From: Streptomyces sp. NBC_01689
Lineage (GTDB): Bacteria; Actinomycetota; Actinomycetes; Streptomycetales; Streptomycetaceae
Assembly (NCBI RefSeq): GCF_036250675.1
Contig: NZ_CP109592.1
Location: 7,006,001-7,070,000 of the forward strand
Reading direction: 5' to 3'
DNA: 64,000 nucleotides
Position 1 is the stretch's first letter, and each line of letters opens with the position of its first letter. Below the pieces are notes generated by a model. It did no database searches. It worked only from the letters and a program-made list of their open reading frames with translations, and had not been told where the DNA came from. Shown in pieces: positions 36,523 to 52,448 of the stretch. Position numbers and translations under genes: made by a program.

Positions 36523-36608
36523 CCCGCGGAGACTTTTCCCGGAGGCGGTCCCCGTGACGGGGGCCGCCTCTCGCGTGTCCGCGCCGCGCGCACCGCGCGC
36601 GGGAGGGG

Positions 36609-38837: not shown

Positions 38838-40130
38838 ATGCCCAGCGAGTTCTTCATTCCCGACCCCGAGGGTCAGGTTCCCAGCGCCGAGGGATACTTC
38901 GGCGCGTTCGGCGGCAAGTTCATCCCGGAGGCGCTGGTCGCCGCCGTGGACGAGGTCGCCGTCGAGTACGACAAGGCGAAGGCGGATCCCGAGTTCGCGC
39001 GTGAACTCGACGATCTCCTCGTCCACTACACCGGACGGCCGAGCGCGCTGACCGAGGTGGCGCGCTTCGCCGAACACGCCGGCGGCGCCCGGGTGTTCCT
39101 CAAGCGCGAGGACCTCAACCACACCGGCTCCCACAAGATCAACAACGTGCTCGGCCAGGCCCTCCTCACCAGACGGATGGGCAAGACGCGTGTCATCGCC
39201 GAGACCGGGGCGGGGCAGCACGGGGTGGCCACGGCCACCGCCTGCGCGCTGTTCGGCCTTGAATGCACCATCTACATGGGTGAGATCGACACCCGGCGGC
39301 AGGCTCTCAACGTCGCCCGGATGCGCATGCTCGGCGCCGAGGTCATCGCCGTGAAGTCGGGCAGCCGCACCCTCAAGGACGCCATCAACGAGGCGTTCCG
39401 GGACTGGGTCGCCAACGTCGACCACACCCACTACCTGTTCGGGACCGTCGCGGGTCCGCATCCCTTCCCGGCCATGGTCCGCGACTTCCACCGGGTGATC
39501 GGGGTCGAGACCCGGCGGCAGATCCTGGAGCGCGCCGGCCGTCTCCCGGACGCGGCCGTCGCGTGCGTCGGCGGCGGCTCCAACGCCATCGGCCTCTTCC
39601 ACGCCTTCATCCCGGACGCCGGGGTGCGTCTCATCGGCTGCGAACCCGCGGGCCACGGAGTCGAGACAGGTGAGCACGCCGCGACGCTGACCGCCGGTGA
39701 GCCCGGCATCCTGCACGGCTCGCGGTCCTACGTCCTGCAGGACGAGGAGGGACAGATCACCGAGCCGTACTCCATCTCGGCCGGTCTGGACTACCCGGGC
39801 ATCGGTCCCGAGCACGCCTACCTCAAGGACAGCGGCCGCGGCGAGTACCGCGCGGTCACCGACGACGCGGCCATGCAGGCACTGCGCCTGCTCTCCCGCA
39901 CCGAGGGCATCATCCCGGCGATCGAGAGCGCCCACGCGCTCGCCGGGGCGCTGGAGGTCGGCAGGGAACTGGGCAGGGACGGGCTGATCGTCGTCAACCT
40001 GTCCGGTCGCGGCGACAAGGACATGGACACGGCCGCCCGCTACTTCGGCCTGTACGACGAGGGCGCCGACGCGGCCGTCCCCGCGGACGCCGACAGCGAG
40101 CACGCCGAGATCGAGGGGGACGCGAAGTGA
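38838..40130 (+). CDS. trpB: tryptophan synthase beta subunit
   Basis: Condenses indole with serine. 430 residues, PLP fold type II. K100 in [11 protein letters not shown] binds [24 protein letters not shown] (phosphate loop) and SGRGDKD are the other family blocks. ATG 38838 is chosen from GAGG 8 nt upstream and the usual [21 protein letters not shown]-terminus. Its stop overlaps the trpA GTG. Confidence 0.96.
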
Positions 40131-40942
40131 GCGGCAACATCCAGCTGTTGAGCGACACCCTCGCCGGTGCCCGGGCGGAGGGGCGGTCCGCGCTCATCGC
40201 CTACCTGCCGGCCGGCTTTCCGAGCATCGACGGCGGCATCGCGGCGGTCAAGGCCGCCTTCGAGGGCGGCGCGGACGTCGTCGAGGTCGGTCTGCCGCAC
40301 AGCGACCCGGTCCTCGACGGCCCCGTCATCCAGACCGCGGACGACATCGCCCTGCGTGGCGGAGTCAAGATCGCCGACGTCATGCGGACGGTCCGGGAGG
40401 CCTTCGAGGCGACCGGGAAGCCCGTGTTGGTGATGACGTACTGGAACCCCATCGACCGCTACGGCGTCGAGCGCTTCACCGCCGAGCTGGCGGAGGCCGG
40501 CGGCGCGGGCTGCATCCTGCCCGACCTGCCCGTGCAGGAGTCGGCGCTGTGGCGGGAGCACGCCGAGAAGCACGGTCTCGCGACCGTCTTCGTCGTCGCG
40601 CCCAGCAGCAAGGACGCCCGGCTCGCCGAGATCACCGCGGCGGGCTCCGGCTTCGTCTACGCGGCCTCGCTGATGGGCGTCACCGGTACCCGGGAGTCGG
40701 TGGGGGCGCAGGCCCAGGACCTGGTGCGGCGCACCAAGGCCACCACCGCGCTGCCGGTCTGTGTCGGACTCGGTGTCTCCGACGCCGCGCAGGCCGCCGA
40801 GGTGGCCGGCTTCGCCGACGGAGTGATCGTCGGTTCGGCCTTCGTGAAGCGGATGCTGGACGCGCCGGACGACGCGGCGGGCCTGGAGGCCGTCCGGGCG
40901 CTCGCCGCCGACCTCGCGAAGGGCGTGCGCGGAACGCCGTGA
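40127..40942 (+). CDS. trpA: tryptophan synthase alpha subunit
   Basis: Splits indoleglycerol phosphate to indole and glyceraldehyde phosphate. 271 residues, barrel fold. Catalytic E53 and D64 are in [50 protein letters not shown] and VGLGVSD are conserved loops. GTGA overlap with trpB couples the two subunits. Last trp gene; a strong terminator follows. Confidence 0.96.
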
Positions 40943-41014
40943 CGGACGGCGGCGCCGGCACGTAGGCGCCGACGCGCGGGGGACGATCCGCTCACTCGAA
41001 CGGGTGGACCTGGG

Positions 41015-41043
41015 ACCGGGGAGGCGCGCTGCGCCTCCCCGGT
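41015..41043 (+). terminator. 13-bp stem terminator of the trp operon
   Basis: ACCGGGGAGGCGC (41015-41027), loop GCT, GCGCCTCCCCGGT (41031-41043), followed by TCGTTCT. It separates trpA from the DsbA-like gene. Confidence 0.85.
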
Positions 41044-41057
41044 TCGTTCTGCCGGAT

Positions 41058-41834
41058 GTGAGCGAGAAGAACCGTGAGGGAAAGACCACCGCCCGTGAGC
41101 GGCTGGCGGCCGAGCGACAGAAGCAGAAGGGCGCGGAGAAGCGCCGCCGGGCGCTGATCGTGGGCGGGTCGGTGGTGTGCGTTCTCGCCCTCGCGGCGGT
41201 GGTGGGCGTGCTGGCCGCCGGCGCGGGCAAGGACAAGAAGAACACCGCGGCGGGACCGGCCGTGGCGCCCTCGGGAGCGACCGGCAAGGACGGTCTCGCG
41301 ATCCCGGTCGGCAAGGACAGCGCCAAGTCGACGCTCACGGTCTGGGAGGACTTCCGCTGCCCGGCCTGCGAGTCCTTCGAGACGGTGTACCGCCCGACCA
41401 TCCGCCAGCTGGTGGACGCCGGTCAGCTGAAGGTCGAATACCACCTGGTCACGCTGATCGACGGGAACATGGGAGGCAGCGGCTCCCGGCACGCGGCCAA
41501 CGCGGCGGGCTGCGCCCAGGACGCGGGCAAGTTCGCCGCGTACCACGACGTGCTGTACGCGAACCAGCCCAAGGAGACGCAGGACACGTTCGCGGACAAC
41601 GGCAAGCTCATCGATCTGGCGGGCAAGGTGGACGGTCTCGTCACCCCGGGCTTCCGCTCGTGCGTCGACGACGGCCGGCACGACAGCTGGGTGACGAAGT
41701 CGAACGCCGCCTTCCAGAAGAGCGGCTTCTCCGGCACCCCGACGGTGCTGCTGGGCGGCAAGAACATCTACGCGGACCAGAGCATGACCCCCGCCAAGCT
41801 CAAGCAACTGGTGCAGGCGGAGAACAAGGGCTGA
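41058..41834 (+). CDS. membrane-anchored DsbA-like thiol oxidoreductase, copy 2
   Basis: 258 residues with the same architecture as the protein at 10669-11481: charged N-terminus (ERLAAERQKQK), one membrane segment (~32-54), then a DsbA/Thioredoxin_4 domain with C101-P-A-C104 in WEDFRCPACESFETV and cis-Pro GFSGTPTVLLGG. It contains two further cysteines (AAGCAQ and FRSCVDD). GTG 41058 begins right after the trp terminator; the ribosome site is weak. Confidence 0.9.
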   Translation: MSEKNREGKTTARERLAAERQKQKGAEKRRRALIVGGSVVCVLALAAVVGVLAAGAGKDKKNTAAGPAVAPSGATGKDGLAIPVGKDSAKSTLTVWEDFRCPACESFETVYRPTIRQLVDAGQLKVEYHLVTLIDGNMGGSGSRHAANAAGCAQDAGKFAAYHDVLYANQPKETQDTFADNGKLIDLAGKVDGLVTPGFRSCVDDGRHDSWVTKSNAAFQKSGFSGTPTVLLGGKNIYADQSMTPAKLKQLVQAENKG

Positions 41835-41966: not shown

Positions 41967-43127
41967 ATGGAAACTGCCTACATTCCCAGCCCGTCGCACG
42001 GTGTGCTGCACCTCGGCCCCATTCCGCTGCGCGGCTACGCGTTCTGCATCATCATCGGCGTCTTCGTAGCCGTCTGGCTCGGCAACAAGCGCTGGATCGC
42101 CCGGGGAGGGCGGGCCGGCACGGTGGCCGACATCGCGGTGTGGGCCGTGCCGTTCGGTCTCGTCGGCGGCCGGCTCTACCACGTGATCACGGACTACGAG
42201 CTGTACTTCAGCGAGGGCCGCGACTGGGTGGACGCCTTCAAGGTGTGGCAGGGCGGCCTCGGCATCTGGGGCGCGATCGCGCTCGGTGCGCTGGGCGCGT
42301 GGATCGGCTGCCGCCGCCGCGGCATCCCGCTGCCCGCCTGGGCCGACGCCCTCGCGCCCGGCATCGTCTTCGCGCAGGCCATCGGACGCTGGGGCAACTG
42401 GTTCAACCAGGAGCTGTACGGCAGGGCGACCGACCTTCCCTGGGCGCTGCACATCACGTCCGCCACGGACGGGCGGGTGCCGGGGTACTACCACCCGACC
42501 TTCCTGTACGAGTCGCTGTGGTGCGTCGGCGTCGGATTCCTCGTCATCTGGGCGGACCGCCGCTTCACCCTGGGTCACGGCCGGGCGTTCGCGCTGTACG
42601 TCGCCGCCTACTGCGTGGGCCGCGGCTGGATCGAGTACATGCGTGTCGACGACGCGCACCACGTCCTCGGTCTGCGCCTCAACGACTGGACCGCGATGGT
42701 GGTCTTCGTTCTGGCGGTGGCCTACATCGTGGTGTCCGCGCGGCTGCGGCCCGGACGCGAGGAGATCGTCGAGCCGGGCGCGGACGCCTCCGGCGAGGAC
42801 GAGGGCGAGGGGGGCACCGAGGCTTCGGTGGGCCTCGGCAAGAAGACCGACGAGAAGACTGACGAGAAGACCGGCGAGAAGGCCGACAAGACGTCCGACG
42901 GGAAGCCGGCCGGGAAGACCGACGGCGCGTCCGCCGACAAGGCGGACGACAAGAAGGACGACAAGGCGGACGACCGGACCGGAGGGCCGGGCGGCGAGGC
43001 CGACGGCGGGAAGCCGGTGACGTCCGGCGGCGGGAAGTCCGCGCCGGAGTCCGAGGGAGCCGCGGACGGCCCCGAGGACGCCGACGGCGCCCTGAGGAGC
43101 GAGGCGGAGTCCGCCAACAAGGGCTGA
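41967..43127 (+). CDS. lgt: prolipoprotein diacylglyceryl transferase with long charged C-terminal tail
   Basis: Transfers diacylglycerol from phosphatidylglycerol to the lipobox cysteine. 386 residues; the enzyme domain is ~1-270 with seven membrane segments, FGLVGGRLYHV, the Lgt signature GRWGNWFNQELYG and YHPTFLYES. Residues ~275-386 are a low-complexity tail of KTDEKT/KADD repeats that E. coli Lgt lacks, predicted cytosolic and disordered. ATG 41967 lies 10 nt after TAGCGT, a possible -10 element. Confidence 0.95.
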   Translation: METAYIPSPSHGVLHLGPIPLRGYAFCIIIGVFVAVWLGNKRWIARGGRAGTVADIAVWAVPFGLVGGRLYHVITDYELYFSEGRDWVDAFKVWQGGLGIWGAIALGALGAWIGCRRRGIPLPAWADALAPGIVFAQAIGRWGNWFNQELYGRATDLPWALHITSATDGRVPGYYHPTFLYESLWCVGVGFLVIWADRRFTLGHGRAFALYVAAYCVGRGWIEYMRVDDAHHVLGLRLNDWTAMVVFVLAVAYIVVSARLRPGREEIVEPGADASGEDEGEGGTEASVGLGKKTDEKTDEKTGEKADKTSDGKPAGKTDGASADKADDKKDDKADDRTGGPGGEADGGKPVTSGGGKSAPESEGAADGPEDADGALRSEAESANKG

Positions 43128-43141
43128 CCGCACGAGTACGC

Positions 43142-43179
43142 CGAGGGGGCGCCGCGTCCGACGACGCGGCGCCCCCTCG
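43142..43179. terminator. 17-bp perfect bidirectional terminator
   Basis: CGAGGGGGCGCCGCGTC (43142-43158), loop CGAC, GACGCGGCGCCCCCTCG (43163-43179). It lies between the convergent lgt and CitE-like genes. Confidence 0.9.
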
Positions 43180-43180
43180 T

Positions 43181-44029
43181 TCATGCGGTCAGCGCCTCGC
43201 GGCGGGCCAGCGCCAGGGTGCGTCGGGCGCACGCCACGACCGCCGCGTCCACGAAACGGCCGTCGGGCAGGGCCTGGGCCCCCGGCTCGATGCCGGCCGC
43301 CTCCACGACGGCCTCGGCGCTCTCGACCTCGGCCGGGGTCGGCAGGTAGGCGCGTTCGATCACCGGGAGCTGACGGGGGTGGATGGCCGCACGGCCGAGG
43401 AAGCCGAGGGTGCGCCCGTGGGCGCAGGAGGCCGCCAGCCCCTCCAGGTCGCGGATGTCCGGGTGGATGGACTGCGCGGGGGGCGAGAGTCCGGCGGCGC
43501 GGGCGGCGAGCACGATCCGGGCGCGGGCCCAGTCGAGGCCGGCGTCCTCGCGTACACCCAGGTCGGCCCGGAGGTCCGCCTCGCCGAGCCCGATGCCCCG
43601 CACGGACGGGTGGGCCGAGGCGATGGCGAAGGCGTGTTCGACGCCCAGGGCCGTCTCCAGCAGGGCGTAGAGCGGGATGCCGTCGCCCTCGGCGGGTGCG
43701 GCGTGCCGGGCGACGTGGGTGACGTCCGTGGGCGAGGCCACCTTGGGCAGCCGCAGACCGGACAGGCCCCGGAGCGCGGAGAGCGTCTTGAGGTCGGCCT
43801 CCGCCAGGGGCCCGTCCAGTGTGTTCACCCGGACGTGGACGGGGACGGGGGGAGGGTCCGAGAGCAGTTCCGCGGTGGCGTCGCGGGCGTACTCCTTGCG
43901 GTCCGGGGCGACCGCGTCCTCCAGGTCGACCAGGACGATGTCCGCGCCCGAGGCAAGGGCCTTGACCACCACGTCCGGCCGGTCTCCGGGGGCGTACAGC
44001 CAGGTGAGCGGGAAGGCCGGGACCGTCAC
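43181..44029 (-). CDS. CitE/HpcH-HpaI family acyl-CoA lyase-like protein
   Basis: 282 residues, (beta/alpha)8 barrel of the CitE-like HpcH/HpaI family. PLTWLYAPGDRPDVVVKALA, VLVDLEDAVAPDRKEYARD (metal Glu/Asp), VRVNTLDG, LRLPKVAS, YALLETALGVEHAFAIA, GLGEADLRADLG and SIHPDI are family blocks. Relatives cleave citryl-, malyl- or citramalyl-CoA. Next to a CoA-transferase it could use a CoA thioester made by that enzyme. Last gene of the ADP-ribosylglycohydrolase operon; GTG overlaps the upstream stop. Confidence 0.88.
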   Translation of the reverse strand: MTVPAFPLTWLYAPGDRPDVVVKALASGADIVLVDLEDAVAPDRKEYARDATAELLSDPPPVPVHVRVNTLDGPLAEADLKTLSALRGLSGLRLPKVASPTDVTHVARHAAPAEGDGIPLYALLETALGVEHAFAIASAHPSVRGIGLGEADLRADLGVREDAGLDWARARIVLAARAAGLSPPAQSIHPDIRDLEGLAASCAHGRTLGFLGRAAIHPRQLPVIERAYLPTPAEVESAEAVVEAAGIEPGAQALPDGRFVDAAVVACARRTLALARREALTA

Positions 44030-45228
44030 AGGGCGCCTTCCGTTCTGAGGGTCGTGATCTCGGTGGTGGAGAGTCCGAGTTCGGTGAGAACCGCGTCCGT
44101 GTCGGCGCCGTGCGGACGGCCCGCCCAGCGGATCGCGCCGGGGGTGGACGAGAGCCGGAACAGGACGTTCTGCATGCGCAGGGGGCCGAGTTCCGGGTCG
44201 GCGACGGTGGTGATGGTGTCCAGTGCCTCGTACTGGGCGTCCTCCATCACCTCGGCGACGTCCTGGATCGGGGCCACCGCGGCCTCCGCCTTCTCGAAGG
44301 CCTCCAGCACCTCGGCGCGGTCGCGGCGGGCGATCCACGCACCGACCGCCTCGTCGAGGACGTCCGTGTGCAGGGCACGGTCCGCCCCGGTCGCGAACCA
44401 CGGCTCGTCGATCAGGTCCGGGCGTCCGACCAGCCGCATCACCCGCTCGGCGATCGACTGCGCCGAGGTCGAGACGGCGACCCACGAGCCGTCCGCGGTG
44501 CGGTAGGTGTTGCGTGGCGCGTTGTTCGCGGAGCGGTTGCCGGTGCGGGGCTGGACATGGCCGAGCTGGTCGTACCAGAGGGGCTGCGGGCCCAGCACGG
44601 TGAGGATCGGTTCGATGATCGCCATGTCGACGACCTGGCCGAGGCCCGAGGTCTCGCGGGCGCGCAGGGCGGTCATCACGGCGTACGCCGTCGTCAGGCC
44701 GGCGATCGAGTCGGCCAGGCCGAAGGGGGGCAGGACGGGGGGTGAGTCCGGTTCGCCGGTGATCGCCGCGAAGCCGCTCATGGCCTCCGCGAGCGTGCCG
44801 AAGCCCGGGCGGTGGGCGGAGGGGCCGAACTGGCCGAAGGCGGTGACCCGGGCGAGGACGAGCCGGGGGTTGACGGCCGACAGTTCCTCCCAGCCCAGGT
44901 CCCACTTCTCCAGGGTGCCGGGGCGGAAGTTCTCGATGATCACGTCGGTCCCGGCGGCCAGCCGCAGCAGGGTGGCGCGGCCGCCGGGTTTCGACAGGTC
45001 GAGGGTGATCGTGCGCTTGTTGCGGCCGAGGAGTTTCCACCACAGGCCGATGCCGTTCTTCGAGGGGCCGTGGCCCCGGGACGGGTCGGGCTTCGCGGGG
45101 TGTTCGACCTTGACGACCTCGGCGCCGAAGTCGCCGAGCAGGGTGGCGGCGAGCGGGCCGGCGAAGAGGGTGGCGAGGTCGAGGACGCGCAGGCCGTCGA
45201 GCGGGCCGGGCCCCGGACGCGCGGTCAT
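44026..45228 (-). CDS. CaiB/BaiF (type III) CoA-transferase
   Basis: 400 residues. The N-terminal LDGLRVLDLATLFAGPLAAT then LLGDFGAEVVKVEHP is diagnostic; NKRTITLDLSKPGGRA, DVIIENFRPGTLEKW and GTLAEAMSGFAAITGE follow. Moves CoA between carboxylic acids; substrate unknown. It is translationally coupled (ATGA) to the ribokinase upstream and overlaps the CitE-like gene downstream, an arrangement that suggests a shared carboxylate-CoA step. Confidence 0.9.
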   Translation of the reverse strand: MTARPGPGPLDGLRVLDLATLFAGPLAATLLGDFGAEVVKVEHPAKPDPSRGHGPSKNGIGLWWKLLGRNKRTITLDLSKPGGRATLLRLAAGTDVIIENFRPGTLEKWDLGWEELSAVNPRLVLARVTAFGQFGPSAHRPGFGTLAEAMSGFAAITGEPDSPPVLPPFGLADSIAGLTTAYAVMTALRARETSGLGQVVDMAIIEPILTVLGPQPLWYDQLGHVQPRTGNRSANNAPRNTYRTADGSWVAVSTSAQSIAERVMRLVGRPDLIDEPWFATGADRALHTDVLDEAVGAWIARRDRAEVLEAFEKAEAAVAPIQDVAEVMEDAQYEALDTITTVADPELGPLRMQNVLFRLSSTPGAIRWAGRPHGADTDAVLTELGLSTTEITTLRTEGAL

Positions 45229-46145
45229 GACGTGGACTGCGCGGGGTGCGGGTCCAGCGAGGCCTGGGCGTCGATCTCGGCGCGGTACGGCATCGAGGAC
45301 GTGGCTCCGCTGCGCTGCACCGACAGGGCGGCGGCGGCCGACGCCCAGACGAGCGCCTCGGGCATCGGCCGGCCCTCGGCGAGCGCGACCGCGAGGGTGC
45401 CGACGAAGGTGTCGCCCGCGCCGGTCGAGTCCACAGCGGTGACGCGGGGCGCGGGGACCGTGAGCGGGGCGGCGCCCCGGGCCGCGTACAGGCTGCCGGC
45501 GGCGCCCAGGGTGATGACGACCTCCGGCACCCGGTCGAGCAGCGCGGTGGCCGCCTCGCGGGGGTCGGGGGTGCCGGTCAGCGCGGCCGCCTCGTACTCG
45601 TTGGGCACGAGCAGGTCGATGGAGGAGAGGAGCTGACGGGAGAGGGGCTGGGCGGGGGAGGGGGTCAGGATGGTGCGGACGCCGTGCCGGCGGGCCGCCT
45701 CGGCGCCGGCGACGACGGCGGCGAGCGGGATCTCCAGCTGGAGCAGCAGCGCGTCCGTGGTGGTGATGAGGCCCTCGTCGCCGGGGGCGAGGTGGTCGAC
45801 GGTGCCGTTGGCGCCGGGGATGACGACGATCGCGTTGCCGCCCTCGTCGTCCACCACGATGTGCGCGGTGCCGGAGGGGCCTTCGGTGGTGCGCAGATGG
45901 TCGGTGTCCACCCCGGAGTGCTCCAGCGCGGAGCGGAGCTGGGAGCCGAACGAGTCGACGCCGACGGCGCCGATCAGCGTGACGTCGGCACCGGCGTGGG
46001 CCGCGGCGACCGCCTGGTTGGCGCCCTTGCCGCCGGGAATCGTACGGAACTCCCGTCCCGTCACGGTCTCTCCGCGCTGCGGGGCCTTGGCGACGTACGT
46101 GACGAGGTCCATGTTCGTGCTGCCGAGCACGGCGATGTGGGTCAT
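45225..46145 (-). CDS. rbsK: ribokinase (PfkB family)
   Basis: 306 residues. PfkB signature 1 PGGKGANQAVAAAHAGADV and signature 2 VDSTGAGDTFVGTLAVAL with the catalytic Asp; VLGSTNMDLV and IPGANGTVDHLA fit ribokinase rather than other PfkB sugar kinases. Phosphorylates ribose to ribose-5-phosphate. The operon has no ribose transporter, so the ribose is more likely produced in the cell. It overlaps the last ADP-ribosylglycohydrolase gene by 4 bp (ATGA). Confidence 0.9.
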   Translation of the reverse strand: MTHIAVLGSTNMDLVTYVAKAPQRGETVTGREFRTIPGGKGANQAVAAAHAGADVTLIGAVGVDSFGSQLRSALEHSGVDTDHLRTTEGPSGTAHIVVDDEGGNAIVVIPGANGTVDHLAPGDEGLITTTDALLLQLEIPLAAVVAGAEAARRHGVRTILTPSPAQPLSRQLLSSIDLLVPNEYEAAALTGTPDPREAATALLDRVPEVVITLGAAGSLYAARGAAPLTVPAPRVTAVDSTGAGDTFVGTLAVALAEGRPMPEALVWASAAAALSVQRSGATSSMPYRAEIDAQASLDPHPAQSTS

Positions 46146-47575
46146 GGGTGACGGGTCTCCCGGTACGTGAGCTGGGCGAGGGTGTCGAAGCCGATCCCGT
46201 TGAAGTCGGCGAGGGAGGTGGCCAGGCGGTTCTTGAGGGGCGTGGTCCAGCGCTCCGGCAGGGCGGCGGGGGTGCCGGCGAGCAGGCCCGCGACGCTGCC
46301 CGCCGTGGCGCCGTTGGAGTCGGTGTCCCAGCCGCCGGACACCGCGCGGCAGATCGATCCGGTGAAGTCGCCGTCCGCGTGGGTGAGGGCCGCGGCGATG
46401 AGGGCCGTGTTGGGCAGGGAGTGCACCCAGTGGTGGTCGCCGTAGGTGGTGTGCAGGATGTCGACGACCTTCTCGAACTCCACGGTCGAGTGGGCGAGCC
46501 GGACGGCGTGGTGGACCGCCTTCGCCAGCCGGGAGGCGGGCGGTACGACGGTCAGGCCGGTGCGCAGGCAGGCGTGGATGTCGCTGCGGCCGGTGGCCGC
46601 CTCGGCGATGGTGGCGGCGGTGAACATGGCCGCGTACACGCCGTTCGCGGTGTGGGTGAGGGTGGCGTCGCGGTGGGCCTGCGCGGCCGCGGCGGCCGGG
46701 TCGCCGGGGTTCGTCCAGCCGTGCACGTCCGCGCGGATGAGAGCGCCGATCCATTCGCGGAAGGGGTTGTGGTGGCGGGCCGTGCGCGGGGGTTCCACGC
46801 CGGCGAGGAGGTTGCGGTAGGCGACGCGTTCCGCGGTGAAGGTACGCCCCGCGGGGAGTTCGTCGAGCCACAGGCGGGCCACGTCCGCGGTGGTGAACCC
46901 CCTGCCGTGGCGCTGGAGCAACAGGAGGTTGAGGAGGGGGTAGTTGAGGTCGTCGTCCTCGGGCATCCCGTCGATGTTCTCGGCGAGCGAGGTGGCCGCC
47001 GAGCGCCTGTTCCAGGGGTACGCGGCGGTCAGTTCGGGGGTCAGACCGCGGGCCGTGAACCAGGTGTGGAGAGGCCAGTTCCCGGTGGCCCTCGCCAGGG
47101 CGCGGATGCCCCGCAGGGGGATCTTCTCGACGGGTTTGCCCAGCAGACAGCCCACGGCGCGGCCCAGCCAGGCGGCTTCCAGGCGGGGCACGGCGACGGC
47201 CGGGGCGGCGGCCGGGAGCGTGGCGGCGGGCGGGGCCACGGGGGCGGCGGAGGATGTGCGGTCGCCGTCCGCTGGCGGGTCCGGCCGCCGCGCGGGCCAG
47301 TCCGGGCAGAGGTCCATGACGGAGGCCAGTTCCGTCGGTTCGTGATCCGCCGGCCCGCCGGGCAGGTCGGCGAGTTCGTCCAGCAGATCGCCGGCCAGGA
47401 CCCGCAGGTGGGGTGCGGCGGGAGTGGGGGAGGCACCGGCCCGGAGGGGGGCCGGTGCGCCGCCGGCCGCGCGCCAGCGCGCCGCGATCGGTTCGGCGTC
47501 GCGGCCGTCCTGGGCGGCCTGGTGGAGCTCGTGCCCGAGGAGGTCCTCGGGCTGGACCCAGGTCAGTCGGAGCAC
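46142..47575 (-). CDS. ADP-ribosylglycohydrolase family protein, variant (ARH-D)
   Basis: 477 residues. A ~130-residue N-terminal extension starts LRLTWVQPEDLLGHELHQA and ends in a Pro/Ala linker. The ARH core has GRAVGCLLGKPVEK where GDALG is usual (Asp replaced by C143), MPEDDDLNYPLLNLLLLQRH in place of the TDDT helix, and an intact C-terminal SGGWDTDSNGATAGSVAGLL. Acidic residues for metal are thus partly conserved, and a different substrate is likely. GTG 47575 overlaps the preceding gene by 13 bp. Confidence 0.85.
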   Translation of the reverse strand: MLRLTWVQPEDLLGHELHQAAQDGRDAEPIAARWRAAGGAPAPLRAGASPTPAAPHLRVLAGDLLDELADLPGGPADHEPTELASVMDLCPDWPARRPDPPADGDRTSSAAPVAPPAATLPAAAPAVAVPRLEAAWLGRAVGCLLGKPVEKIPLRGIRALARATGNWPLHTWFTARGLTPELTAAYPWNRRSAATSLAENIDGMPEDDDLNYPLLNLLLLQRHGRGFTTADVARLWLDELPAGRTFTAERVAYRNLLAGVEPPRTARHHNPFREWIGALIRADVHGWTNPGDPAAAAAQAHRDATLTHTANGVYAAMFTAATIAEAATGRSDIHACLRTGLTVVPPASRLAKAVHHAVRLAHSTVEFEKVVDILHTTYGDHHWVHSLPNTALIAAALTHADGDFTGSICRAVSGGWDTDSNGATAGSVAGLLAGTPAALPERWTTPLKNRLATSLADFNGIGFDTLAQLTYRETRHP

Positions 47576-48732
47576 GAGAGCCCCGCAAGCTCGGCGTAGG
47601 CCGTCTCGTGCGCCCGTCGGCGCCGTACGTCCCGGTCGAAGATCTCGCGGGTCACCGCCGCGAGGGCCGTCGCCGGGGCGTGCAGGTCGAGACGGCTGGC
47701 CTCCCCGACCGTCTTGGCCCAGTCGTGCGGGATCTCGGAGCCGAGCGCGCCGGCCAGGGCCCCGGCCATGGTGGCGATGGAGTCGCAGTCCCGCCCGTAG
47801 TTCACCGCGCCGAGGACCGCGTGCCGGAAGTCGCCGCCGGAGACCACCAGCATGCCGAGCGCGACCGGGAGTTCCTCGATGGAGTGCAGCCGGGAGGGCC
47901 GGCGGGCGCCGAGCGACGGGGCGCGGTAGTCCGGGCCGACCGTGTCGTAGGGGGCCACCGCCTCCCGCAGCGGGCGCAGCGCGGACTCGAAGTCCGAGTA
48001 CCGGACGGCGACTTCGCAGACCGCGTCGATCGCCTCCCGGGTGCCGTCCTTCGCCAGGGCCAGACATTCCGTGACCACCGAGTCCGGGGTCGCCCCCGGC
48101 GCGCAGGCCGCCGCGACGCCCGCCGCCAGCACGCCCGCCGCCTCCCTGCCGTACGAGGACTGGTGCGCGCCGGCGACGTCCAGCGCCTCGGCGTAGGCGC
48201 CCGCCGGGTTGCCCGCGTTCACGAGTCCCACCGGCGCCATGTACATCGCCGCGCCGCAGTTGACGATGTTGCCGACGCCCGCCTCGCGCGGGTCGACATG
48301 ACCGTAGTGGAGCCGGGCGACCAGCCACTTCTCGGCGAGGAAGATCCGCTGGAGCGGGAGCGCCTCCGTCTCCAGTTCGGGGATCCAGCGGGGGGCTGTC
48401 ATCAGGTCGGGGACCAGGTGTCCGGCGACGGCGTAGGCGTCGAGGTGGTCACGGACCGTGGTGTACACGCGGATCAGCGCGTGGGTCATCAGGGTGTCGT
48501 CGGTGACGTGCCCGTCGCCCTTGTGGTACGGGGCGATGGGGCGGGCGGTGCGCCAGGCGTCGCCGTTCCAGGGGCCGACGACGCCGTGCACGCGGCCGCG
48601 GTGCCGTTCGGTGATCTGCTCGGGGGTGTAGCCCTCGACGGGGCCGCCGAGCGCGTCGCCGACGGCGGCCCCGACGAGGGCTCCCGTGATCCGTTCGTCG
48701 AGGGTTCTCATTTCTACTCTTTTGGGCGTCAT
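47563..48732 (-). CDS. ADP-ribosylglycohydrolase family protein, canonical (ARH-C)
   Basis: 389 residues. Both metal sites are intact: N-terminal ITGALVGAAVGDALGGPVEG, HVTDDTLMTHALIRVY, and C-terminal NYGRDCDSIATMAGALAGAL. ARH enzymes use two Mg ions to hydrolyse N- or O-glycosidic bonds to ADP-ribose. ATG 48732 (MTPKRVEMRTL) is used; in-frame ATG 48711 is possible, and neither ribosome site is strong. Confidence 0.9.
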   Translation of the reverse strand: MTPKRVEMRTLDERITGALVGAAVGDALGGPVEGYTPEQITERHRGRVHGVVGPWNGDAWRTARPIAPYHKGDGHVTDDTLMTHALIRVYTTVRDHLDAYAVAGHLVPDLMTAPRWIPELETEALPLQRIFLAEKWLVARLHYGHVDPREAGVGNIVNCGAAMYMAPVGLVNAGNPAGAYAEALDVAGAHQSSYGREAAGVLAAGVAAACAPGATPDSVVTECLALAKDGTREAIDAVCEVAVRYSDFESALRPLREAVAPYDTVGPDYRAPSLGARRPSRLHSIEELPVALGMLVVSGGDFRHAVLGAVNYGRDCDSIATMAGALAGALGSEIPHDWAKTVGEASRLDLHAPATALAAVTREIFDRDVRRRRAHETAYAELAGLSCSD

Positions 48733-48739
48733 GCCCGAA

Positions 48740-49951
48740 TCATCCCTCTGGGAGGGCCAGTTCCGTCGCTTCGAGCAGATCGGCGAGTCCGACGAGGTCC
48801 GTGCCGGAGAGCCGGGGAAGCGCGCAGCCCGACAGGACCCGGCAGGCGTCGCGCCAGGTGGCCGGGATCGCGGCGCCGCCGCCGAGCGCACCGGTCAGGG
48901 CGCCCGCCAGGGCCGGGGCCGAGTCGGCGACCCGGGAGAGACAGGCGGCGGCGGGCACCGCCTCCGCGATCCGGCCGCGCGCCACGGTGGCGAGGGCCAG
49001 GGCGACCGGGACGGTCTCCGCCGCCGCGACGCCGTAGCTGTAGACGTGGTCGACGATCTGGTGCTCCAGGAGGGGGACCAGGGCGAAGGTGCCCTCGCTG
49101 TCGCGGGCGAGCCGCAGCGCGTGGCGCGCGTTGCGGCCGATCTCCGTCTCCTCGGGCAGCTCGGCGAGCGCGGCGTCCGCGCAGGTGTCGACGTCGGCCC
49201 CGGCCAGGGCGAGCGCCAGGGCCGCGGCCATGGCGCGGGCGCCGTGCACACCGTCGCCGTCCTGGGTGTAGCGGGCGTCGAACTCGGCCAGCTCCGCGGC
49301 GAGCCGGGCGTCGCCCGGGTGGGCGACGGCGAGCACGCAGGCGCGGACACAGGCCGCGTCGTCGAAGTAGTGCGGGTTGTCGTGGCCGGTGGCGGGCGGG
49401 CGCAGACCGGTGGCGAGGTTGCCGAGTCCGGCCCGTACGGAGATCCGGGCGCGCAGCGGCAGCAGCGCGGACTCGACCTCGGGGGCGCGTTCGGCCGCCG
49501 CGGCGACCTCGCTGGCGACGGCGTTCCAGGACAGGTCGATGGACGCCCGCATCCGCCGCGCCCGGCCGAGGTCGCCGAGCGCGCCGGCGTCCTCGGCGCG
49601 CAGCAGGGCCTCGGCGGCGAACGCCGCCCACTCGGCGTCGTCCGAAGGGCCGAGCCGCAGGGGCTCGGGCGGCTGGTTCAGGGCGATGGGCACCGGCAGG
49701 GTCGTCGTCGCGTTCTGTTCGGCGAACGTGTCCAGTTCCCTGGTCAGCCGCCGGGTCCACTCGGGCATCCGGGCCGCACGGTGCCGGGCCGCGGGCCAGC
49801 CGGCGGCGTCGCCCGCGGCGAGGCCGAGCAGGAGGCCCTCGATACGGCGCGGGCGCGGGCCGGGCGCCGGGCCGTCGGCCTCCGTGACGAGGACGTCGGG
49901 CGCCGAGACCGCTCCGACGCCGGTCTCGTCCCCCACGAGTCCGGGACTCAT
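48740..49951 (-). CDS. ADP-ribosylglycohydrolase family protein, degenerate (ARH-B)
   Basis: 403 residues. The fold is recognisable from RRIEGLLLGLAAGDAAGWPA at the start and ALAGALTGALGGGAAIPATW near the end. The TDDT metal motif is absent (NATTTLPVPIAL in the equivalent place), and the C-terminal GxDxDS is reduced to SRVADSAPA. This looks like a pseudoenzyme or a member with changed chemistry. The start is firm: AAGGAGG 7 nt before ATG 49951. ATGA overlap with ARH-A. Confidence 0.85.
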   Translation of the reverse strand: MSPGLVGDETGVGAVSAPDVLVTEADGPAPGPRPRRIEGLLLGLAAGDAAGWPAARHRAARMPEWTRRLTRELDTFAEQNATTTLPVPIALNQPPEPLRLGPSDDAEWAAFAAEALLRAEDAGALGDLGRARRMRASIDLSWNAVASEVAAAAERAPEVESALLPLRARISVRAGLGNLATGLRPPATGHDNPHYFDDAACVRACVLAVAHPGDARLAAELAEFDARYTQDGDGVHGARAMAAALALALAGADVDTCADAALAELPEETEIGRNARHALRLARDSEGTFALVPLLEHQIVDHVYSYGVAAAETVPVALALATVARGRIAEAVPAAACLSRVADSAPALAGALTGALGGGAAIPATWRDACRVLSGCALPRLSGTDLVGLADLLEATELALPEG

Positions 49952-51189
49952 GGACGTACCTCCTTGTCGGCGGCGGAGAGGACGGCCGTGGCCGGGCGGG
50001 GGCCGGTGGCGGTGCGGGTCCGGGCCGGGGTGTGGGCGGGGCTCGTGGGCAGAGGGCGGCGGTCCGGGGCGGGGTGGGGTTCCGGAGGCGGGGGCGTGGG
50101 GTCCGGGCCGCGTGCGGGCCGTCTTCGGTCCCGCGCGTGCGGGCCGTCGTCCGGGACCGGCTCCCGCGCGGTGCCCGGGCGCCACTTCCTGTCGTCCCCG
50201 GGGGTCAGCAGTTCCGCCACGTCCAGCACGTGATGGCCCTCCATCGACGGCAGGCAGCTGCCGCGTGCCGGGCCGATGGCCGCCGCCCATTCGGCCGGGA
50301 TCGCGTGGTCGCCCCGGGTGGCCCCGGCCAGCGCGCCCGCCACCGCCGCGGTGGTGTCGGCGTCGCGGCCCATGTTGACGGCGGTGAGGACGGACTCGGT
50401 GAAGTCGCCGTCGGCGGCGGCGTACGCGCCGAAGGCCAGGGCGACGGCTTCCGGCGCCAGGTCCGTCCAGGGGTAGCCGCCGATGACGACCGCCGAGCGC
50501 ACCGCGCGTTCGCCGCGGTGCGCGACCGCGATCGCGCGGCGCAGCGAGCGGGCCGTCCAGGAGTCGTCCGGGATCACCGCGAGCGCGGAGGCGGCGACAG
50601 CGATGGTCGAGGCCCCCGCCATCGCCGCCGCGACACCCGCCGCGACCGCCTGGCCACCGTAGATGCCCTCACCGTCATGGCTCACCGAACCGTCGATCGC
50701 CACCAGTCGCGCGGCCTCCGCGGGCCGCCCCGCCGCGAACACGCCGAAGGGAGCCGCGCGCATCGCCAGACCGTCGCTCCACGCGTGCCGGTGCTGGGCC
50801 GAGATGGGGGCGGCCAGCCCCCGGCGCAGGTTCTCCAGGGTGCCGCGCTCGCTGAAGCCGGCGCCGCGGAACGGACCCTCGTCACGGTCCGCGATCCACT
50901 GGTGCCAGGCCGATTCGACGTGCGCCACGGTGAGCGCCGAGCCGTGCCGGGCCAGCAGCAGTCCGGAGAAGATCGCGTACTCCGTGTCGTCCGTACCCGC
51001 GGGGTGTTCGGCGACGTAGCCCGTGATCCGGCCCCACTTCGCGCGGATCTCCGACGGCCGCATGTTCTCGGCGGGCGCGCCCAGCGCGTCCCCGACGGCG
51101 AGGCCGAGCAGCGCGCCGCGTGCCCGTTCGCGCGGACCGGTGGCGTCCCCGGGCGCAGGGACGGAGGGGATGCAGGCGATGGAAGCCAT
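49948..51189 (-). CDS. ADP-ribosylglycohydrolase family protein, canonical (ARH-A)
   Basis: 413 residues; first gene of the seven-gene operon. Metal ligands intact: ARGALLGLAVGDALGAPAEN, AGTDDTEYAIFSGLLLARHG, and NMGRDADTTAAVAGALAGAT. The C-terminal ~90 residues are an Arg/Pro-rich low-complexity tail (RDRRRPARGPDPTPPPPEPH) after the enzyme domain. ATG 51189 has GAGAGGAG 9 nt upstream. Substrate could be ADP-ribosylated protein, nucleic acid or a small ADP-ribose conjugate. Confidence 0.92.
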   Translation of the reverse strand: MASIACIPSVPAPGDATGPRERARGALLGLAVGDALGAPAENMRPSEIRAKWGRITGYVAEHPAGTDDTEYAIFSGLLLARHGSALTVAHVESAWHQWIADRDEGPFRGAGFSERGTLENLRRGLAAPISAQHRHAWSDGLAMRAAPFGVFAAGRPAEAARLVAIDGSVSHDGEGIYGGQAVAAGVAAAMAGASTIAVAASALAVIPDDSWTARSLRRAIAVAHRGERAVRSAVVIGGYPWTDLAPEAVALAFGAYAAADGDFTESVLTAVNMGRDADTTAAVAGALAGATRGDHAIPAEWAAAIGPARGSCLPSMEGHHVLDVAELLTPGDDRKWRPGTAREPVPDDGPHARDRRRPARGPDPTPPPPEPHPAPDRRPLPTSPAHTPARTRTATGPRPATAVLSAADKEVRP

Positions 51190-51437
51190 TCGGTGCCACT
51201 CCTCTCAGGGCCCAGAGCCCTTTGGGGATGTGTCCCACCGGAGGGGGCAGGCGGAGCCTCGTACGGTCCCGTATTCACCCGGTCGACATCTGTGCGGACC
51301 TGCTCACGAATGAGCAAGAAAGGGTAAAGCCGCAGGTTAGCCGAGCCTTTCCTTGCTGGCGGCCAGGAAATTCCAGGCGTACTTTTGCTGTTGTCGAAAA
51401 GTAGAAGCAGTCCAATCGCATGTTCTGGGGGACCGGT
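51190..51437. promoter_or_regulatory. divergent regulatory region with two dyads and an iron-box-like site
   Basis: Between the ARH operon and the VIT1-type gene. TGCTCA-CGAA-TGAGCA lies at 51301-51316 and TACTTTT-N10-AAAAGTA at 51380-51403. GCAGGTTAGCCGAGCCTTT at 51332-51350 matches 12 of 19 positions of the DmdR/IdeR iron box. The region is AT-richer than its surroundings. Sites are candidates only. Confidence 0.45.
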
Positions 51438-52169
51438 ATGTCCATCATCGAGACCGAAGCCGCGCTGCACGAGGCGCACCGGGACAACCACACCCACCGC
51501 GATGTGAACGGCGGCTGGCTGCGCCCGGCGGTGTTCGGCGCGATGGACGGGCTCGTGTCCAACCTGGCCCTGATGACCGGCGTCGCCGGCGGCGACGTGT
51601 CCCACCGGACGCTCGTCATCACCGGCCTCGCCGGCCTGGCCGCGGGCGCCTTCTCCATGGCCGCGGGCGAGTACACCTCCGTCGCCTCGCAGCGCGAACT
51701 CGTCGAGGCCGAGCTGGACGTGGAGCGCCGGGAGCTGAGGAAGCACCCGAAGGACGAGGAGCGTGAGCTCGCCGCGCTCTACGAGACCCGCGGCGTCGAG
51801 CCCGCGCTGGCCCGCGAGGTCGCCCGGCAGCTGTCCCGCGACCCCGAGCAGGCCCTGGAGATCCACGCGCGCGAGGAGCTGGGCATAGACCCCGGCGACC
51901 TGCCCTCGCCCGCCGTCGCCGCCGTGTCGAGCTTCGGCTCCTTCGCCCTCGGCGCGCTCCTCCCGCTGCTCCCGTACCTGCTCGGCGCGACCGTCCTGTG
52001 GCCCGCGCTGCTGCTCGCGCTCGTCGGGCTCTTCGGCTGCGGTGCCGTGGTGGCCCGCGTGACGGCGCGCTCCTGGTGGTACAGCGGAATCCGGCAGCTC
52101 GCGCTCGGAGGCGCCGCCGCGGGTGTGACGTACGCCCTGGGCAGCCTGTTCGGTACCGCCGTAGGATGA
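51438..52169 (+). CDS. VIT1/CCC1 family metal (Fe/Mn) transporter
   Basis: 243 residues. The signature RPAVFGAMDGLVSNLALMTG begins the first helix; SMAAGEYTSVASQRELVEAE follows the second, then a cytosolic metal-binding helical domain rich in Glu (ERRELRKHPKDEERELAALY) and three more membrane segments at the C-terminus. Family members move Fe2+ or Mn2+ out of the cytosol. ATG 51438 has GGGGGA upstream. Divergent from the ARH operon. Confidence 0.92.
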   Translation: MSIIETEAALHEAHRDNHTHRDVNGGWLRPAVFGAMDGLVSNLALMTGVAGGDVSHRTLVITGLAGLAAGAFSMAAGEYTSVASQRELVEAELDVERRELRKHPKDEERELAALYETRGVEPALAREVARQLSRDPEQALEIHAREELGIDPGDLPSPAVAAVSSFGSFALGALLPLLPYLLGATVLWPALLLALVGLFGCGAVVARVTARSWWYSGIRQLALGGAAAGVTYALGSLFGTAVG

Positions 52170-52209
52170 GGGTAGGCGCGGAGCTATGCAAGGGACTGCA
52201 TAAGTAGCC

Positions 52210-52236
52210 GTTACTCGCTGGTTTCGAATACTTAAC
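52210..52236 (-). promoter_or_regulatory. GlnR-like box with three half sites
   Basis: On the minus strand GTTAA-N6-GAAAC-N6-GTAAC, close to the Streptomyces GlnR pattern gTnAc-n6-GaAAc-n6-gTnAc. It lies 340 bp upstream of the gltB start. Confidence 0.5.
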
Positions 52237-52448
52237 CACTGGGCATGAGCCGTAAGCGCTGCGGGCAATGAGGCCTGTTCCGCACCACCGCGGCGGGCGA
52301 CGTTGCCTGCCGCGCCCCGGCCCCACGGACACCGATCTGTCCGCCTGGGTCCCCTTTCACTCCAGTGACGCGCGCCGTACCCACGCCGCGCCCCCCGGTG
52401 TCCGCATGTTGGAACGCAGTATCCGGTTCCCGGGAACGGCTCCATCAT

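Follow-up and report, generated by a model that had tools for sequence, protein, structure and literature searches.

Seven consecutive genes on the minus strand of a 64,000-nucleotide stretch of the genome of Streptomyces sp. NBC_01689 (contig NZ_CP109592.1, positions 7,006,001 to 7,070,000; hereafter the window) are predicted to be the enzyme-encoding half of an operon that, under LacI control, breaks down a ribosylated carboxylic acid taken up from outside, a reading to which we assign a probability of roughly 0.55. They encode four members of the ADP-ribosylglycohydrolase (ARH) family (A, B, C, and D), a ribokinase (RbsK, K), a CaiB-type coenzyme A (CoA)-transferase (T), and a CitE-like acyl-CoA lyase (L), in the order A-B-C-D-K-T-L, and are flanked by gltB and a VIT-family gene on one side and by lgt on the other. 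In its complete form, the operon would comprise lacI, two CUT1 permease genes, a gene for a solute-binding protein (SBP), the four ARH genes, rbsK, in some cases an FGE-like gene, caiB, and citE. Judging from this context, it would import the conjugate; ARH-A, -C, and -D, metal-dependent and ARH3/DraG-like, would cleave ribosidic bonds as small-molecule ribosidases, and ARH-B, itself non-catalytic, would be a partner or a binding subunit; RbsK would convert ribose to ribose 5-phosphate; the CaiB-type enzyme would transfer CoA to the freed acid; and the CitE-like enzyme would split the acyl-CoA, probably a 3-hydroxyacyl-CoA, into central metabolites. In the genome of the window, the enzymes may receive their substrate through another importer or act on one arising inside the cell. 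A sequence-only reading of the locus had proposed that ADP-ribose or ribose is removed from a glycosidic conjugate and that an acid product is passed to a CoA-thioester/lyase step. This proposal is borne out in part: release of ribose and the acid step fit the LacI/ATP-binding cassette (ABC) importer context and the recurrence of the set in rhizobia, whereas ADP-ribose is left unsupported, the importer being of a sugar type. A literature search on ARHs with ribokinase, ribosides, LacI, and the rhizobial context, with most subscription journals outside its reach, found no description of the operon.

Conservation beyond Streptomyces

CaiB was searched for in 197 genomes of the class, 79 of which had a match at E ≤ 1e-80. 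Thirty-three genomes outside the family carried a CaiB of at least 58% identity, and 30 of these were fetched, the other three being partial or contig-edge matches. An ARH cluster was present in 18 of the 30, and in 15 the set A-B-C-D-K-T-L was complete and in order behind an SBP gene; two more were cut by contig ends (G591 and G642), and one (G718) had the order T-L-lacI-importer-C-D-A-B, with no K up to the contig end. Where the stretch extends that far, ARH-A is preceded by the SBP gene, two CUT1 permease genes, and lacI. The importer SBP is closest in the PDB to varied sugar-binding proteins, one of them an arabino-oligosaccharide binder, although these matches are weak (best E 1.1e-14). 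The set that the sequence-only reading had treated as one unit is thus conserved as a unit, its order being kept in Streptomyces and its complete form recurring in other families; a Streptomyces-only oddity was thereby ruled out. Such a restriction had been suggested by the phylum samples, where ARH-D was found in 12 of 296 genomes at 1e-30 and ARH-C in 8 of 296 at 1e-80. An FGE-sulfatase-like gene lies between K and T in 11 of the 18 ARH-bearing genomes of other families, and copies with a long unassigned N-terminal part were seen at L146 6350-7030, L158 7379-8038, and L171 7693-8304. In a further locus (L163, genome G361), A is unmatched and B, C, CaiB, and CitE match in pieces, while D and K match over long stretches; this copy looks to be in decay.

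Related operons occur outside the Actinobacteria. Annotated plasmid records were searched with ARH-D and with its relative from Mycolicibacterium arabiense, which gave 5 and 26 records, respectively; 21 of the 26 were read, the others being four of Ensifer adhaerens and a second record of Rhizobium AB2/73. Apart from the Nonomuraea locus L198, taken up below, the records read gave 20 plasmid loci (L199-L218). In 17 of these, lacI and the ARH genes share a strand; CaiB plus CitE follow downstream in six (L201, L204, L208, L209, L210, and L212, with L208 almost the same as L209), and L214 has CaiB but no CitE. A same-strand ribokinase is present in four (L199, L200, L205, and L217); matches on the other strand in L202 (a fragment), L215, and L216 were not taken to belong to the operon. 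The arrangement is LacI-permeases-SBP-ARH-ARH-UgpC-CoA transferase-CoA ester lyase in Ensifer/Sinorhizobium and the same in Agrobacterium with ribokinase in place of the transferase and lyase; it is LacI-ARH-SBP-permeases-ribokinase-UgpC in M. arabiense and LacI-permeases-SBP-unknown-ARH-ribokinase-ARH on a plasmid of Deinococcus aetherius. The rhizobial homologues are 45% (CaiB, E 4e-107) and 33% (CitE, E 3e-22) identical to the window proteins, and ARH-C is 43% identical over 387 amino acids to ARH1 of Ensifer sp. PDNC004 (E 1e-90). Taken together, the rhizobial and actinobacterial loci indicate that importer, ARHs, CaiB, and CitE have been kept together in two phyla. Tentatively, and as a possibility rather than a probability, actinobacteria and plant-associated rhizobia may share a previously undescribed catabolic pathway for a ribosylated hydroxy- or keto-carboxylic acid, in which the ARHs would be small-molecule ribosidases, the dead ARH an obligate partner, and the aglycone would enter the CoA-transferase/CoA-ester-lyase pair; an opine-like plant or nodule riboside as substrate is speculation from the rhizobial hosts.

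Two features of the plasmid loci stand apart. The gene between SBP and ARH on the D. aetherius plasmid (L200 4595-5707) encodes a 370-residue protein with no Pfam match. In a record of Enterobacter hormaechei (L218 6454-10913), lacI-ARH-SBP lies between chitoporin and glnS genes, in a chromosome-like stretch inside a 517-kb plasmid record.

Predicted regulation

The palindrome GKAAACGTTTMC (also written GTAAACGTTTAC) immediately precedes lacI in 15 of the 16 loci examined, many of these closely related and all among those from which the pattern was derived, and occurs nowhere else in these stretches at up to one mismatch. Thirteen of the 15 have a second copy (at most one mismatch) at a distance of 19-36 bp, and the sixteenth locus (L166) has a diverged palindrome; L171, L173, and L181, where lacI runs to the edge of the stretch, were left out of the count. 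The palindrome is predicted to be the LacI operator. It was not found in the plasmid loci, where one match with one mismatch occurs (L217). The 9.96-Mb genome of the window contains no exact match, and the only match within two mismatches in the window, at 36528, is far away and expected by chance; the absence of the operator from this genome implies that the window operon has left that predicted regulon. Upstream of ARH-A, on the minus strand, two conserved blocks (51271-51293 and 51346-51364, around CAGATGTCGACCGGGTG and CCGCCAGCAAGGAAAGGC) are possibly the promoter or operator of the reduced operon.

The four ARH paralogues

All four genes exceed the PF03747 gathering cut-off of 26.2 bits (117-194 bits). 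PF03747 matches occur at 12 places in the genome, one of which is short (31 bits) and four of which lie at this locus; chance clustering was ruled out, since four of 12 fell within 4.1 kb in none of 200,000 random placements. Pairwise identity among A-D is about 25-34% over the longest matches, except for B and C, which match over a short stretch only. The best PDB match of ARH-A is DraG (2woe, E 1.6e-18), and models of D and B (AF2 for B) match ARH3/DraG, that of B matching ARH3. The equivalog cut-offs for DraG (TIGR02662; A, 78.5 versus 337.05 bits) and Tri1 (NF041672; C, 48.4 versus 490 bits) are not reached, and ARH-B and ARH-D have no NCBIfam match.

Three metal-binding motifs were scored, i.e., the Glu of a GDxxGxPxE-like motif, DD, and DxD[ST], whose residues we take to have the roles they have in ARH3; titles of PDB entries name mutants of E41, D77, and D314. 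A, C, and D have all three in each of the 13 copies inspected. ARH-B lacks the motif Glu and the first Asp of DxD[ST] in all 13 copies, across lineages, and retains the DD pair in 12. Comparison with five nearby species gave dN/dS (omega) values of 0.12-0.27, which indicate purifying selection on each of the seven genes, ARH-B (0.12-0.19) included; the latter is predicted to be a conserved, motif-degenerate pseudo-ARH. Among 7999 sequences scored there were 1520 ARH-B homologues at E 1e-8, and the 120 of these listed added no context. The genome of the window holds another ARH-D-like gene (44% identity; L107 8813-9898, G000:C1 near 2718800), which adjoins a NUDIX gene and a glycerate kinase gene, and three further members of the genus carry similar ARH genes (L111-L113). 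A match to ARH-C with one in-frame TGA is found in a genome of the genus that lacks K (G161:C9:136746-137882).

By position, SCO2028-2033 of Streptomyces coelicolor should be A, B, C, D, CaiB, and CitE, and SCO2034 is presumably lgt. SCO2026 is gltB (extract of PMC9282665). The ARHs might instead reverse ADP-ribosylation of proteins, nucleic acids, or antibiotics, with rbsK, caiB, and citE as salvage genes or bystanders. Such a role would agree with the family name and fold, including the matches of the D and B models to ARH3/DraG, with the NUDIX neighbour of the paralogue elsewhere in the genome, and with the listing of SCO2028-2031 as uncharacterised DraG/ARH homologues (extract of PMC9411070; SCO2028-2030 in that of PMC5087735). 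We consider it improbable, because the LacI and sugar importer context recurs in several phyla, because ARH-B is without metal motif residues, and because purified SCO2028 and SCO2030, the presumed counterparts of ARH-A and ARH-C, had no detectable activity on U-alpha-ADPr, one substrate type only (extract of PMC13036486).

Ribokinase, CoA-transferase, and lyase

RbsK scores 303.7 bits (307.2 in a second scan) against the ribokinase equivalog TIGR02152, above its cut-off of 299.65, and matches solved ribokinases with a best E of 4.6e-65. That the PfkB-type kinase acts on another pentofuranoside or a ribose analogue would be in line with the SBP, given its varied sugar-binding matches and the arabino-oligosaccharide binder among them. 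This seems very unlikely in view of the ribokinase score and of the other full-length ribokinase found in all four K-less Streptomyces genomes tested.

The CoA-transferase (403.6 bits) lies above the gathering cut-off of PF02515 and does not reach the named CaiB equivalogs (succinate-glutarate, oxalate, carnitine, and mesaconate; best 224.7 versus 750). Likewise, the lyase stays below the cut-offs of both RipC (145.4 versus 375) and CitE (128.8 versus 443.4); its closest solved chains are by name acyl-CoA lyase beta chains (E 2.1e-36).

The reduced form in Streptomyces

The ARH-D search of species-representative genomes gave at least 581 relatives. Those read were the 80 highest-ranking ones, all titled as Streptomyces; ranked by similarity to the window, they are biased to the reduced form. 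The order A-B-C-D-(K)-T-L is constant in these 80 loci where contigs allow. The stretch from gltB to the DsbA-like gene is whole without K in 41 and with K in 27, the remaining 12 being cut or missing a neighbour. No SBP, permease, or LacI gene lies beside the cluster in any of the 80, 70 of which are complete from gltB. Correspondingly, lacI, permeases, and SBP are absent between gltB and lgt in the window (for lacI and permeases, the search covered this locus only). Other members of the genus (L187-L189) have lacI and the importer with the cluster, with K absent in L187 and L188, as does a different genus of the family (L162, genome G552); in L187 the cluster sits between VIT and lgt, as in the window. 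The copy in the window thus represents a cut-down version of the larger operon. We infer that its lineage lost lacI and the importer rather than never having had them, and the simplest history would be that an operon once complete at the VIT-lgt site has, in many Streptomyces, shed both lacI and the importer and has repeatedly shed its ribokinase.

ARH-B matches at E ≤ 1e-15 were found in 222 of 293 genomes of the order (two of nine genera), an upper bound because this threshold also admits paralogues. Of 61 genomes sampled evenly across the genus, 41 had ARH-B at E ≤ 1e-60 and 39 had SBP homologues (40 matches). Twelve of the 40 SBP regions were read, six of them without further annotation: three have the ARH cluster, one (L190) adjoins lgt without ARHs, and in two (L192 and L193) a paralogous CUT1 importer lies beside glycosyltransferase and APH phosphotransferase genes. 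Given these non-ARH contexts, simple relocation of the importer in Streptomyces was set aside. In L190 (9460-12700, genome G451, same genus), the SBP gene and two permease genes adjoin lgt with no ARH match beside it, and the genome has no ARH-B at E ≤ 1e-60. Some SBP homologues are paralogues, since G790 has two copies; others may feed the ARHs.

Weighing the proposed pathway

Several observations weigh against the view that the substrate is a ribosylated carboxylic acid brought in by the importer. Firstly, only four of the 41 genomes with ARH-B have an adjacent SBP homologue (G756, G773, where the two are 1.2 kb apart by coordinates, G782, and G790); in 25 it lies elsewhere, and the remaining 12, the genome of the window among them, lack any at E ≤ 1e-60. 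Import is therefore not part of the window copy. In Streptomyces lacking importer and lacI, the enzymes might thus clear a damaged or aberrant internal ribosyl metabolite, a view that suits the 80 nearest loci without importer or regulator, the 12 genomes without SBP homologue, and the persisting purifying selection. Such intracellular repair nevertheless appears improbable: the larger form has a dedicated importer, 25 of the 41 genomes have an SBP homologue elsewhere, and CaiB and CitE would be odd in a repair route.

Secondly, ribose is inferred from RbsK and the ARH family only, and ribokinase is absent in 48 of the 79 Streptomyces loci having both D and T (present in 31), which rules out that it is indispensable at the locus. 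The estimated D-T spacing is at most 48 bp in 43 of the 48. On a C+D+T tree of 101 loci (FastTree; 27 of 98 inner branches weak), the presence and absence of K require at least 10 changes, and loci of other families fall on one side of a branch. The D-T spacers of L098 and L105 (379 and 425 bp versus about 880-1020) look like ribokinase remnants; L098 was taken as lacking K in the 79-locus count and as having it in the tree reconstruction.

Thirdly, the acid and ribose branches are separable, since CaiB occurs without ARHs within 8-15 kb in 12 of the 30 genomes of other families, and since Nonomuraea gerenzanensis (L198; lacI-permeases-SBP-A-B-C-D-K) has no match to CaiB or CitE within the 25 kb fetched. 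Nor was a ribokinase found next to CaiB and CitE in the rhizobial loci. Attachment of the acid to ribose is the weakest link of the model, since CaiB-CitE and ARH-RbsK can each be found without the other, and the identity of the acid is a guess because neither CaiB nor CitE reaches an equivalog cut-off. One transcript might hence serve two pathways, the ARHs and RbsK digesting a riboside and CaiB-CitE degrading an unrelated carboxylic acid. Eight loci with CaiB, often with CitE, and without ARHs have neighbours that include MmgE/PrpD, DctM-type permease, amidohydrolase, or GntR/FCD genes. These neighbours are the ones expected in carboxylate catabolism and also agree with the acid role given to CaiB and CitE in the main model; ARH, ribokinase, and importer occur together without CaiB-CitE. 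We regard this as unlikely, as rhizobia show the combination of ARH, importer, CaiB, and CitE again, although their gene order and ARHs differ in part, and as D-K-T-L are tied by 4-bp overlaps in the window. A single catabolic operon for a ribosyl conjugate remains our preferred interpretation.

Comparison with known systems

Four systems are similar in part. The yegTUV genes of Escherichia coli also combine a transporter (the nucleoside:H+ symporter YegT), an ARH-family protein (YegU), and a sugar kinase (the PfkB-type YegV) under one dedicated regulator (YegW/GgaR), but with a major facilitator superfamily (MFS) symporter and a GntR-family regulator instead of ABC and LacI, with one ARH, and with no CaiB/CitE; their function is unsettled and linked to glycogen/ADP-glucose (extract of PMC10819704). 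DraG/ARH3 hydrolases have the same fold, and their metal-binding motifs are present in A, C, and D, whereas ARH-D is 16-24% identical to solved ARH enzymes in structural alignment, B has lost motif residues, and the operon context is that of sugar catabolism. Itaconate/citramalate degradation, in which the other Rip enzymes also have roles, likewise places a CitE-type C-C lyase after a CoA-transferase, and RipC is the top NCBIfam match of L; however, L scores far below the RipC cut-off and the window operon has no hydratase gene. Actinobacterial LacI/CUT1 sugar operons, which use a shared ATPase, have lacI, two permeases, and SBP in a row. The relatives have these genes and the predicted operator, unlike the window copy, but the glycoside-hydrolase role is apparently taken by ARH-family proteins, and CoA-transferase and lyase are added.

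The locus in the window

Pfam and NCBIfam searches bore out the earlier description of seven genes on one strand and their identities (Table 1); the Pfam scan used the longest open reading frames, and gene starts were then picked by hand. The overlaps of 4-13 bp and the 7-bp gap described earlier were likewise recovered, the six junctions from A to L being -4, +7, -13, -4, -4, and -4 bp. A simple scan of 42900-51500 for one promoter type only gave no promoter- or terminator-like site, and an RNA element was ruled out, 42900-52400 having no Rfam match. On the convergent side lie lgt, a DsbA-like thioredoxin gene (41004-41834), trpA (40127-40942), and a PALP enzyme gene, which by its position next to trpA is probably trpB; on the opposite side are the VIT-family gene and gltB.

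Table 1. Genes and leader of the cluster, in window positions.
Feature	Positions	Strand	Characteristics	Evidence
ARH-A, ADP-ribosylglycohydrolase family	49948-51189	-	Motifs GDALGAPAE, TDDT, GRDADT; Pro-rich C-terminal tail	PF03747 E 4.7e-57
ARH-B, ARH fold	48740-49951	-	Motif-degenerate (GDAAGWPAAR, SDDAE, SRVADS); predicted pseudo-enzyme	PF03747 E 1.2e-33
ARH-C	47563-48732	-	Motifs GDALGGPVE, TDDT, GRDCDS all present	PF03747 E 7.9e-47
ARH-D	46142-47575	-	Motifs GCLLGKPVE, EDDD, GWDTDS; N-terminal extension of ~120 residues	PF03747 E 3.8e-48
RbsK (K), ribokinase	45225-46145	-	PfkB family	TIGR02152 303.7 bits
CoA-transferase (T)	44026-45228	-	CaiB-type (family III)	PF02515 (CoA_transf_3) E 1.1e-120
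Acyl-CoA lyase (L)	43181-44029	-	CitE-like, HpcH/HpaI	PF03328 E 1.1e-34
Leader 5' of ARH-A	51200-51419	-	Two conserved blocks	Alignment of 18 Streptomyces regions, window included

Implications

Should the proposed pathway be correct, many bacterial "ADP-ribosyl hydrolases" would be sugar-catabolic enzymes. If the four ARHs of S. coelicolor belong to a sugar-catabolic operon, its ARH count would be misleading, and there would be an explanation for the lack of activity in assays on ADP-ribosylated substrates. The conserved pseudo-ARH beside three apparently active ARHs offers a test case for selection on a dead enzyme. With an importer, a regulator, a predicted operator, and named hosts at hand, the substrate becomes directly searchable.

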